The notes under the pieces were generated by a model. That model did no database searches. It was not told the origin of the DNA and was given only the letters and a program-made list of their open reading frames with translations. DNA of 64,000 nt from Pelagibacteraceae bacterium AG-349-L23 (GTDB lineage Bacteria > Pseudomonadota > Alphaproteobacteria > Pelagibacterales > Pelagibacteraceae), in contig QCDD01000002.1 of assembly GCA_003281045.1 (NCBI GenBank), positions 23,148 through 87,147 on the forward strand, given 5' to 3'. A program made the translations under genes and the position numbers. Shown in pieces: positions 7,419 to 12,062 of the stretch (positions are counted from its first letter, which is position 1; the number at the start of each line of letters is the position of its first letter).

Positions 7419-8639
7419 TTATTCTGTTTTTAGTCTTAAAACTGGTTCTTCTCTAATTGGTAGATGAATTATTGCTGCAAAAACTGATAATGCAATTGCT
7501 AAATACCACGCATAATCATATGACCCATATAGATCATAAAATAAACCCCCTAGATAAGCGCCAAAAAAAGATCCAACTTGGTGACTTAAAAAAACAATTC
7601 CATACAGAAGACCTAAATACTTTGTCCCAAACAGGTGAGCTACAATTCCACTTGTTGCAGGCACTGTCGATAACCATAAAAAACCAAAACTTGCACCAAA
7701 TAAAAATGCATTAATATTACTTGCGGGCATAAATATAAAAAAAATTATAGAAACACCTCTTAAAAAGTAAATTGCACTAAGGATAATTTTCTTACTCATT
7801 TTTGCAGAGAGGTAGCCACTTAATAGTGAACCAAAAATATTAAATAAACCGATCAAAGATAAAATTGCTGCTGCAGTCCAATCCTCAAGACCTCTATCTA
7901 TCACATATTTAGGTACATGTGTTCCAACCAAAGTTATATGAAAACCACATACAAAAAACCCTGATACAAGTAAAATATAACTTTTAGTTTTAAAAGCTTC
8001 TGAGAGAGCTTCCTTAAAAGATTGATCTGAACTTTTTTCGACACTTTCCGTTTTAGATGGAGATCTAACAAAATATGCTGCAACTAAACCAGATAACAAA
8101 AATAAGCAAAAAACAAATAATGTATAGTTCCAACCAAACTCTGTGAGAGAAAAATTAGTAAAAATTGGTGAAAGAAAGTAACCAAATGATCCAACAGCAG
8201 TAACAAAACTCATTGCAATCGTTCTTGTAGATAATGGAAAATGTTTACCCACAACTGACATAGGAATACTTATTGCCGTTCCACCAAGACCTATTCCTAT
8301 TAATAAACCCATATGGATTTGAAAAAATATTCCAGTATTTGGACCCGTGTATAAAAAATAAACACCTAAAGTATAAAATATAAATGCTCCGATTATAGCT
8401 ATATGTCCTCCGTATTTATCTGCTATAGCTCCGAAGATAGGACCTGTTATTCCCCACATCAACATCTGCATCCCAATTGCAAAACCAAATGCGGTGTTGC
8501 TTATCTTTAAACTCTCGTTGAAGTCCATAAAGAACAAACCAAATGTTTGTCTGACACCCAAAGAAATCAAAACAACAAAGCATGCAGCAAATAAAGTTAC
8601 TATCGCTGTTTTTGAACGAAAAAATTTTTCAGAACTCAT
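7419..8639 (-). CDS. MFS transporter
   Basis: 12-TM protein with MFS motif (GAIADKYGG). Confidence 0.85.
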   Translation of the reverse strand: MSSEKFFRSKTAIVTLFAACFVVLISLGVRQTFGLFFMDFNESLKISNTAFGFAIGMQMLMWGITGPIFGAIADKYGGHIAIIGAFIFYTLGVYFLYTGPNTGIFFQIHMGLLIGIGLGGTAISIPMSVVGKHFPLSTRTIAMSFVTAVGSFGYFLSPIFTNFSLTEFGWNYTLFVFCLFLLSGLVAAYFVRSPSKTESVEKSSDQSFKEALSEAFKTKSYILLVSGFFVCGFHITLVGTHVPKYVIDRGLEDWTAAAILSLIGLFNIFGSLLSGYLSAKMSKKIILSAIYFLRGVSIIFFIFMPASNINAFLFGASFGFLWLSTVPATSGIVAHLFGTKYLGLLYGIVFLSHQVGSFFGAYLGGLFYDLYGSYDYAWYLAIALSVFAAIIHLPIREEPVLRLKTE

Positions 8640-9811
8640 CGTAAATGTCTTAAAGCTTGTTTGATATCAGCAATCAAATCATTAGGATCTTCAAGACCTA
8701 TATGTAATCTTACTAAATGTTCATCTTTTGGTAAGTTCATATATTTTCTTTTACCAGTTTCTCTAAATTCTTGATGAAGCGCTAAACTCTCAAATCCACC
8801 CCAACTATAGCCATAGCCAAACAATTTCAGTGAATTAACAAATTTTCGAACAGAATTAATATTCTTAGCTTTTATTTTTAATCCCATTAAACCTGACGCT
8901 CCAGAATAATATTTTTTCCACATTCTAAAATTTTGTGAATTTTTTTTGAAAGGATATAACAATTTAATTCTTTTATTTTTTGATAAAAATGCTGCAACTT
9001 TTTTAGCATTTTCTCTATGTCTGTCTAACCTCACGTCTAACGTTCTTAATCCCCTAGTTATTAAATAAGCATCATCAGGTCCTAATCTAAGACCAGTAAT
9101 TTTTTCTGCTGCTTTAACTTTAGAAAACACCCTTTTATTCACTGCTAAACTTCCACCCATAACATCTGAATGCCCAGAATAATATTTAGTTGCAGAGACA
9201 ATTGACATATCAAAACCAAGTTTAATTGGTTTTAAGTAATAAGGGGTACCCCAAGTATTATCAATTGCAGTGTATAGCTTATGCTTTTTTGCAATCGAAA
9301 TAATTTTACCCAAGTCTTGAAAATCAAAAGTATTACTTCCAGGATTTTCTACAAAAATCAATTTTGTTTTCTTTGTAATATTGTTTTTTAATGTATTGAG
9401 GTCATGCGGATTATAAAAAACTGTCTTTATATTAAAATCTTTTAAATAATCTTCAGTTAAAATTCGTGTAGGACTGTAAACTGGATCTGCAACTAACATT
9501 TCATCTCCAGGTCTAACAAGGCTGAATATTGCTAAAAAAACCGAGCCAAAACCTGTTGGTGTCGTAAAAACATGATAACTTTCCTCAAGTTTTGTTAAAA
9601 TTTTTTGTAATATATAAGTAGTAGAGGTCCCTTGTCTGCCGTAATCAAAATGACCACCTGTTGGATTTCGTAGAGCTTTTTTTTGAGTTTTTCTTATATG
9701 TTGCATAGACTTAAATATTATTGTTGATGCTCTAACCACTGGTGGATTTACTGATTGGTTATGAAAATCTTTTGCAGTGTGTTTTAAAAATGTCTTAAAA
9801 GATTTACCCAT
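8636..9811 (-). CDS. metC: Cystathionine beta-lyase (PLP-dependent trans-sulfuration family)
   Basis: PLP lysine region SATKYYSGHSDVMGG; Met at 9811 (MGKSFKTFLKHTAKDFHNQSVNPPVVRAS) preferred over the track start at 9850. Confidence 0.85.
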   Translation of the reverse strand: MGKSFKTFLKHTAKDFHNQSVNPPVVRASTIIFKSMQHIRKTQKKALRNPTGGHFDYGRQGTSTTYILQKILTKLEESYHVFTTPTGFGSVFLAIFSLVRPGDEMLVADPVYSPTRILTEDYLKDFNIKTVFYNPHDLNTLKNNITKKTKLIFVENPGSNTFDFQDLGKIISIAKKHKLYTAIDNTWGTPYYLKPIKLGFDMSIVSATKYYSGHSDVMGGSLAVNKRVFSKVKAAEKITGLRLGPDDAYLITRGLRTLDVRLDRHRENAKKVAAFLSKNKRIKLLYPFKKNSQNFRMWKKYYSGASGLMGLKIKAKNINSVRKFVNSLKLFGYGYSWGGFESLALHQEFRETGKRKYMNLPKDEHLVRLHIGLEDPNDLIADIKQALRHLR

Positions 9812-9883
9812 AAAAAAATTGATATGATTAACGGACAATGCTATATCCATATCAAAAATTCAATAAATTAATGAAAAGGATTA

Positions 9884-9967
9884 ATGAGTTACCCAAAGAA
9901 ACATAGAGGCCGAAGAAAAATGGGGTCGAAAAAAAGAAGAGCTAGAAAAAAAAATAAGAAAAAATAG
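9884..9967 (+). CDS. 27-aa hyperbasic small protein, possibly ribosome-associated
   Basis: Own translation MSYPKKHRGRRKMGSKKRRARKKNKKK*; AAAAGGA Shine-Dalgarno-like sequence just upstream; ends next to the mnmA stop. Position of the TAG was set using the track coordinate of the mnmA stop. Confidence 0.6.
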   Translation: MSYPKKHRGRRKMGSKKRRARKKNKKK

Positions 9968-9968
9968 C

Positions 9969-11087
9969 TTATTCCTTTATCCAGCCGCCTCCTAATACTT
10001 TATAACCTAAAGCATCTTTATTATAGAAAACACATGCCTGGCCTGGTGATATTCCATCTTCAGGACTTTCAAGGTTTACATTCGCACCATTTTGATCACT
10101 TAGGTTAACGTTTGCTTTTAGCAATTTACCAGTAGATCTAACTTTTACAAAAATGCTGGATTTAAATTCTTGATCATTTGCTAATAAATTAACATTTTTT
10201 AATAAAATATCTTTCTTTCCTAAATATTCTTTTGGTCCAACAATTATTTCATTTTTTTCAGAATTAATTTTAATAACGTATAAAGCTTCTTTGTCAGAAA
10301 CTTTTATTCCTTTTCTTTGACCAATAGTAAAATTTATAATTCCATCGTGAACACCAATTACATTACCTTTAAGATCTTTTATGTTTCCTTTTTTAAATGA
10401 GTCTGGTCTGAATTTTTGAATTACTGATGCATAATCTCCACCAGGTACAAAACATATATCCTGGCTGTCTGGTTTATCAGCAACATTAAGTTCTAGTTTT
10501 TTGGCAATTTCACGTGTTTCATTTTTATGAAGACCACCTAATGGAAATCTTAAATAATCAAGTTGTTCTCTAGTAGTATTGAAAAGAAAATAACTTTGAT
10601 CTCTATTCTCGTCGATAGCTCTGTACATATTTGTATTATTATTTGAAGTAACACTTTTCACATAATGACCAGTGATTAAAGCATCAGCATTTAAATCTTT
10701 AGAAACTTCAAATAAATCCTTAAATTTTACTGTTTGATTACATTGAACACAAGGTATTGGAGTTTCACCTTTTAAGTAGCTATCAACAAAGTTGTCTATA
10801 ACTCCTTGCTTGAACTTATTTTGATAATATAAAATTTTATGTTCTATATCTAGTTTTTGAGCAACTCTTTTTGCATCCATGATATCTTGACCAGAACAAC
10901 ATTGCTTTGACTCCGCGACCTGCTTTGCATCGTCATAAAGTTTTAAAGTAATGCCAATTACGTCATATCCTTCTTTTTTCATCATGCCTGCGACAGTTGA
11001 TGAATCTACACCTCCAGACATTGCAACAACTACTTTTGTGTCTGATGGTTTTTTGTTTAATCCTATTGAATTTAATTCTTTATTCAT
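9969..11087 (-). CDS. mnmA: tRNA-specific 2-thiouridylase MnmA
   Basis: [10 protein letters not shown]-loop, CVQCN, GHYVK, DQSYFLF, GQRKGI. Confidence 0.95.
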
Positions 11088-11128: not shown

Positions 11129-11299
11129 ATGATATTAGATTTTGAACCAGGAGACAAAGTTATCAATCCCTCTAATAAAAACTGGGGTATAGGTCAAGTT
11201 CAATCAATTATAAAAGAAAAAGTGACAGTTAATTTTGAAAATGTTGGAAAAAAAGTAATAAATACTAAAAATATAGAATTAATAAAGATCAATGAATAA
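11129..11299 (+). CDS. DUF3553 family protein (56 aa)
   Basis: Own translation [56 protein letters not shown], resembles DUF3553 small alphaproteobacterial proteins. Confidence 0.75.
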
Positions 11300-12062
11300 T
11301 TTGAATTTAAAAAAGATTGTCGAAAATCTAATTGGTACATTTATTCATGCAGGAAAAATTTCTTTAGATTTAAGAAAGCAAGGACTTATAAAAAAAATTA
11401 AAGCCGATAATACTCCTGTTAGTAATGGAGATTTAGAAGTTAATAAAATTGTTTCTCAAAAAATTAAAGAATTAACACCTGAACTTCCCATCATTTCAGA
11501 AGAGACCTCTGATAATAAATCAATAAACAATCTTGAAAACTTTTGGCTAATTGACCCCATAGATGGCACCTATGACTACATAAATAATCTAGAGGAATTT
11601 ACAATTAATGCTGGATTAATAATTAACAAAAATCCAGTAGCTGGATTAATTTATGCCCCCTCAAAAAAAAGAATGTTTTATTCCTATGGACCAAATCATG
11701 CCTATGAGTTTACTAATGGAGAAACAAAGAATTTAAATTGTTCTGAAAATTTTGATAAAAATGATGTAAAATTTGTATCTTATTCAAACAATATTAAACC
11801 TGAAATAAAAAAATTACATAAAAAATTTAATGTGAAAAAATATGTGAGAATGAAAAGTTCTCTTAAATTTTGTGTCATTGCTGCTGGTGAATATGATGGA
11901 TATGTGGCTGAGCCTAGAGCTTGTGAATGGGATATAGCGGCTGGTCATGCTATTTTACAACATGCCGGAGGAATAATTACAGATTTTGAAGGCAAAGAAA
12001 TTAAATATGGAAAGAAAAATTTTAAAAATCCAAGTTTAATCTTAAAAAATAAAAGTATTTGA
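11292..12062 (+). CDS. Inositol monophosphatase family / 3'(2'),5'-bisphosphate nucleotidase (CysQ-like)
   Basis: ISEET, WLIDPIDGTYDYIN, WDIAAGHAIL motifs. Confidence 0.85.
   Translation: MNNLNLKKIVENLIGTFIHAGKISLDLRKQGLIKKIKADNTPVSNGDLEVNKIVSQKIKELTPELPIISEETSDNKSINNLENFWLIDPIDGTYDYINNLEEFTINAGLIINKNPVAGLIYAPSKKRMFYSYGPNHAYEFTNGETKNLNCSENFDKNDVKFVSYSNNIKPEIKKLHKKFNVKKYVRMKSSLKFCVIAAGEYDGYVAEPRACEWDIAAGHAILQHAGGIITDFEGKEIKYGKKNFKNPSLILKNKSI

Follow-up and report, generated by a model that had tools for sequence, protein, structure and literature searches.

The window analysed here, a stretch of 64,000 nucleotides from the small and AT-rich genome of Pelagibacteraceae bacterium AG-349-L23 (contig QCDD01000002.1, positions 23,148 to 87,147), holds a tiny gene in the spacer between two larger ones. 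These are a metC-like gene for a PLP enzyme (8636..9850, reverse strand) and mnmA, encoding a tRNA 2-thiouridylase (9969..11087, reverse strand), both named from sequence. The 118 bp that separate them are mostly filled by an open reading frame (ORF) on the forward strand (9884..9967), which starts with the ATG at 9884, ends with the TAG at 9965-9967 and encodes the 27-aa protein MSYPKKHRGRRKMGSKKRRARKKNKKK. With the metC-like gene as divergent and mnmA as convergent neighbour, the ORF stops 1 nt away from the stop of mnmA. Its product is hyperbasic, with 10 lysines and 6 arginines (16/27 residues, 59% K/R), and its listing as a protein gene draws on the sequence, on orthologues and on relatives in phages.

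A Shine-Dalgarno-like AAAAGGA (9874..9880, forward strand) lies 3 nt 5′ of the ATG, and under a permissive pattern a Shine-Dalgarno-like triplet or longer match occurs no more than 20 nt from the start codon in 151 of 169 orthologous loci. Scans for promoters of the sigma-70 type and for terminators found none. The window sequence agrees with what a previous sequence-only reading had described, namely a 27-aa ORF with 16 basic residues between a metC-like gene and mnmA, preceded by a good Shine-Dalgarno; its wording of a “gene-sized gap” was generous, since the spacer holds the ORF but only just fits it. Farther along the window, a 56-aa ORF (11129-11299, forward strand) shows a strong match to DUF3553 (PF12073, E 5e-24), together with a weak Tudor/CarD-like similarity.

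A conserved protein-coding gene in two orders

The 169 orthologous loci all span exactly 27 codons, with no indel at any position, A-tract included. They comprise 140 different DNA sequences but no more than 19 different proteins, and among 30 loci compared codon by codon nearly all changes are synonymous. Over the 169 loci, mean pS is 0.57 and mean pN 0.041 (pN/pS 0.072), with synonymous divergence near saturation. The ORF is a real, conserved protein-coding gene under extreme purifying selection. The opposite reading, that a basic ORF arose by chance in an A-rich stretch between genes, could appeal to the short length and to the AT-rich, A-tract-rich sequence and to nothing else; the low pN/pS, the intact frame in every locus and the conservation across orders and phages refute it, leaving its probability at practically nil. 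Frame-disrupting indels in the A-tract and a lack of conservation in related genomes, the two outcomes that the sequence-only reading had named beforehand as refuting, were both looked for and did not occur, and its idea of a tiny, conserved and overlooked protein has strong support from selection and conservation.

The protein is present in 248 of the 297 genomes of the window’s order and in 9 genera of the family Pelagibacteraceae. The ORF is missing from six near-complete genomes of the window’s own genus, where the absences look like missing regions, because five of them have no mnmA match either and in the sixth mnmA is cut by a contig end. The five genomes without the tiny ORF and without any mnmA match (G093, G248, G251, G244, G278) are an observation in their own right: mnmA is normally conserved, and the joint absence reflects either a recurrent assembly gap or a real loss of the region. 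A different case is a partial copy (L081; contig 21 of genome G178, 11460-11501) in a genome that is 95% complete, where only residues 1-14 match, within an open frame of 18 codons; it is possibly a decayed copy, a truncation or the effect of a contig end. The metC-like gene adjoins the ORF in about 149 of the 169 loci; mnmA adjoins it in 49 and lies farther away in 97, another stretch being placed between them.

A sister family of the same SAR11 order (f2) has no detectable copy, and therefore a ribosome of close relatives manages without the 27-aa protein, which speaks against the ribosomal reading proposed below. A class-wide search recovered two more alphaproteobacterial families with the gene, whose products are MGYPKKHRGRRKIGSRKRRAKRRAKKK and MGYPKKHRGRRKRGSKYRRNKKRQKKK. 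Both belong to one second order, in which 120 of 150 genomes, all 20 near-complete genomes and all 7 genera are positive. The gene neighbours there differ from those in SAR11, so that the protein functions in trans, without any operon tie. No further clear member turned up in two Pseudomonadota samples, of 398 and 399 genomes; in the second, which was searched with a profile that includes the phage types described below, SAR11 alone was clear, the remainder being weak partial matches, mostly within longer frames. The 27-aa protein is essentially universal in Pelagibacteraceae and in one other alphaproteobacterial order.

Phage-borne relatives

The sequence-only reading did not reach as far as phages, and the most surprising part of the analysis is that they carry the same family. 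A first scan of IMG/VR detected 36 contigs with close relatives, and a scan with a wider profile detected at least 108 contigs with relatives, 80 of them retained; the counts are lower bounds, and most IMG/VR contigs are fragments. The 80 loci encode 65 distinct proteins, such as MPHPHKNRPRKGRRKLGSKKRKARSNRRKR, often with a strong Shine-Dalgarno upstream. A group of phage loci (L200, L206-L209, L213-L216, L222-L224, L226-L231) is organized in another way: the start codon overlaps the stop codon of the gene before it (TAATG), there is no clear Shine-Dalgarno, and the product has a longer C-terminal tail, as in RRRIRLGLRIRKRKK.

The gene lies in real phage DNA. It was recovered in whole IMG/VR records of 79-188 kb, and some of the contigs carry a GroES gene and a capsid gene that is 66-68% identical to those of pelagiphages HTVC023P/HTVC027P, while others have genes for endonuclease I, the UvsX recombinase, the Dda helicase or IMP dehydrogenase nearby. 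Searches of annotated and of cultured phages were negative: 13 annotated phages related through the neighbouring genes had no copy in their whole records, with 13 of 13 positive-control contigs detected by the same search, and a tblastn search against cultured phages gave no match, which shows little because its low-complexity filter was on.

The phage relatives share the pattern P-x-K...GRRK-x-GS-x-x-R, and ten columns (M1, P4, K6, GRRK, GS and one R) are invariant in cells and phages alike. Three phage contigs encode a protein that agrees with the one from the second order at every one of 25 residues (100% identity), over DNA that differs by 16-22%. A gene common to phage and host, and kept constant by a single target, would be expected to show such a pattern.

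The composition of the protein does not by itself point to the ribosome as that target, because any hyperbasic peptide binds nucleic acid. The protein could be a general nucleic-acid-binding or condensing peptide at work in both cells and phages, for instance a nucleoid protein or a helper of packaging or recombination, which would suit not only its composition but also the phage copies found beside UvsX, Dda helicase, endonuclease I or capsid genes. Nevertheless, peptides selected for charge only should drift, and here ten columns are invariant, among them the non-basic P, G, G and S; moreover, the neighbours vary from one phage group to another and so indicate no single DNA process. We regard such a general role as unlikely.

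A further alternative places the ancestral gene in phages, as a peptide for the takeover or inhibition of translation, with the bacterial copy as a domesticated form that protects the host or has become housekeeping. The larger and more varied phage family and the identity that phage and bacterial proteins can reach both speak for it, and it is kept alive by the finding that bS22 and eL41, the small ribosomal proteins treated below, inhibit cell-free translation of E. coli when free (PMC10085706). Against it, a gene that hardly any member of two bacterial orders lacks looks like housekeeping, and identity with the bacterial protein favours substitution over poisoning. This origin therefore seems very improbable to us.

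Comparison with known small ribosomal proteins

The family is undescribed in the libraries searched. Neither the 27-aa protein nor its relatives in phages and the other order match any Pfam or NCBIfam model, the family is absent from PHROGs, the PDB returned no matching chain by sequence or by profile, and none of the paper texts searched contains its core motifs. Several misannotated coding sequences, which go unnamed in the main text, had been noted when the spacers of Pelagibacter ubique were screened at an early date (PMC2704228).

The best known protein of such size and charge is bS22, which shares with mitochondrial mS38 and eL41 a single small-subunit pocket that h27, h44 and h45 form (PMC10618245, PMC7005279, PMC6582356, PMC10085706). 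Published bS22 proteins have 28-33 aa, and a K/R share of 55-65% is general in bS22 and eL41 (PMC10085706), so that the SAR11 protein, with 27 aa and 59% K/R, falls within the yardstick of about 25-35 aa and 55-65% K/R. The bS22 of Borrelia went unannotated until cryo-EM and is 61% K/R (PMC10618245).

The closest known systems are the bS22 of Flavobacterium johnsoniae (7jil), a chain of 9i5v described as AURKAIP1/COX24 domain-containing, and Borrelia bS22 (8fmw), all with 28-30 aa and about 60% K/R, similar to the 27-aa protein. As in our family, the Flavobacterium and Borrelia proteins have no Pfam or NCBIfam match, and K-[IVM]-[GAS]-[ST]-x-K-R-[KR] is common to both sides. They differ at the N-terminus, which reads MP-x-GKKRKRH in these bS22 proteins and M[GSA]YPKKHRGRRK in the 27-aa family, and the THKRKK and NRHKK of the former are not conserved in the latter. 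Actinobacterial bS22 and mitochondrial mS38 resemble the window’s protein in size class, in basic character and in a methionine after a K/R run. However, the RKLL-RTR part and any PF08213/NF047430 match are missing from the 27-aa protein, and that methionine is replaced by Q, I, V or R in its relatives. The eL41 protein (eS32) of eukaryotes and archaea has about 25 aa, most of them K/R, and would be alike in its type of pocket too, should the model set out below hold. Finally, bTHX, which binds the 30S head, has 27 aa, starts with MG and ends with KKK, just as the SAR11 protein does.

For the numerical comparison, the reference sequences of bS22, eL41 and bTHX agree letter for letter with PDB chains. 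Against composition-keeping shuffles, the SAR11 protein matched none of actinobacterial bS22, eL41 and bTHX significantly, and its match to the bS22 of Bacteroidota and Borrelia was borderline; single-sequence shuffles against bS22 gave mostly p 0.03-0.6. With an ungapped matrix of the phage proteins, the bS22 of Flavobacterium, of 9i5v and of Borrelia fell into one register, K-[VIM]-[AS]-T facing K-[IV]-G-S, at scores short of significance (p 0.19-0.31); the three agreements are not independent because the three proteins are relatives. The family profile, tested with permuted columns, reached p 0.010 (300 permutations) and p 0.019 (2,500 permutations) against the Bacteroidota/Borrelia type, values uncorrected for the four reference families tried, through an alignment that runs along K-[IVM]-[GAS]-[ST]-x-K-R-[KR]; without the first four columns the same comparison gave p 0.057. 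Against actinobacterial bS22 the profile gave p 0.29, and the accepted actinobacterial and Bacteroidota types of bS22 gave p 0.39 with each other in this test, without any mutual match. These figures are suggestive: they allow, and slightly favour, a link to Bacteroidota-type bS22 without establishing it.

Two other homologies were considered and rejected. For bTHX (S31), the similarity to Thermus Thx is not above that of shuffled controls, so the bTHX-like alternative offered by the sequence-only reading falls to chance level. For eL41/eS32, shuffles and profile showed nothing beyond composition against the solved eL41.

The main suggestion of the sequence-only reading, an AURKAIP1/COX24-type protein, fares better in part: size, composition, stand-alone conservation and carriage by phages all fit, whereas PF08213 has no match, neither for the protein nor anywhere in the window’s genome, so that membership is only plausible. 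The search for alphaproteobacterial homologues that it had proposed likewise returned conservation in two orders together with a negative AURKAIP1/COX24 HMM and a negative bTHX comparison. Cryo-EM has proven the bS22 proteins of Flavobacterium (7jil_5) and Borrelia (8fmw_V), yet neither Pfam COX24_C nor NCBIfam ribo_bS22 recognizes them, and because they fail as well, the missing PF08213/NF047430 match is not counted against the bS22 idea. A match to these models defines only the actinobacterial/mitochondrial branch of bS22. As a working idea we treat the family as bS22-like, and do not file it as bS22.

The same comparisons leave room for a ribosomal or ribosome-assembly protein at a new site, outside the bS22 pocket and invented independently by these bacteria and phages. 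The family-specific pattern PxK..GRRKxGS..R and the lack of a significant match to actinobacterial bS22, eL41 and bTHX would agree with such a site, and so strict a conservation is in keeping with a fixed RNA target. On the other side stand the resemblance, a weak one, of K[IVM][GAS][ST]xKR to the Bacteroidota/Borrelia type of bS22 and the fact that the known site for peptides so sized and charged is the bS22 pocket. A new site therefore seems to us rather unlikely.

A putative small-subunit protein of SAR11 and of phages

What best fits a tiny, K/R-rich protein that hardly changes within whole bacterial orders, has no operon linkage and also occurs in phages is a ribosomal protein. On balance, by a slim preference, we favour a stand-alone rRNA-binding protein of the small subunit, of the bS22/mS38/eL41 kind, sitting in the h27-h44-h45 pocket and also carried by phages. 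We infer that the peptide would bind RNA, and the ribosome in particular, as a short, K/R-rich and probably mostly helical element that fills exactly this conserved rRNA pocket (h27/h44/h45 of 16S), touching H67-H68 of 23S. Its presence there would make the decoding-side neck and the subunit interface rigid.

Ribosomal proteins that are small and exchangeable, bS21 and bL12 among others, are known to be encoded by phages (Mizuno et al. 2019, PMC6375957), and the phage bS21 is supplied to host ribosomes (PMC6375957). The 27-aa family resembles these proteins in being small, likely exchangeable, common to host and phage, and host-like in sequence. The purpose of its carriage would be a similar one, with the phage-encoded copy probably supplied to host ribosomes in infection, as for bS21. 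Mizuno et al. 2019 do not mention bS22 in their main text (PMC6375957). It is a tentative proposal, at slightly less than even chances, that the family is an undescribed ribosomal protein family, fixed in the SAR11 ribosome and among the commoner phage-encoded translation proteins, which bacteria and phages exchange in matched form.

The consequences would reach beyond this locus. The bS22 profiles miss structurally proven bS22, and therefore many bacteria whose pocket has been taken for empty may in fact have it filled. SAR11 bacteria are among the most numerous and abundant in the sea, and if a protein that no list includes sits close to the decoding centre of their ribosomes, then something is missing both from ribosome-based annotation and from models of how SAR11 translates. 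A phage family for the same protein would extend the short list of virus-carried ribosomal proteins, and would give a testable case of phages re-equipping the ribosomes of their hosts.
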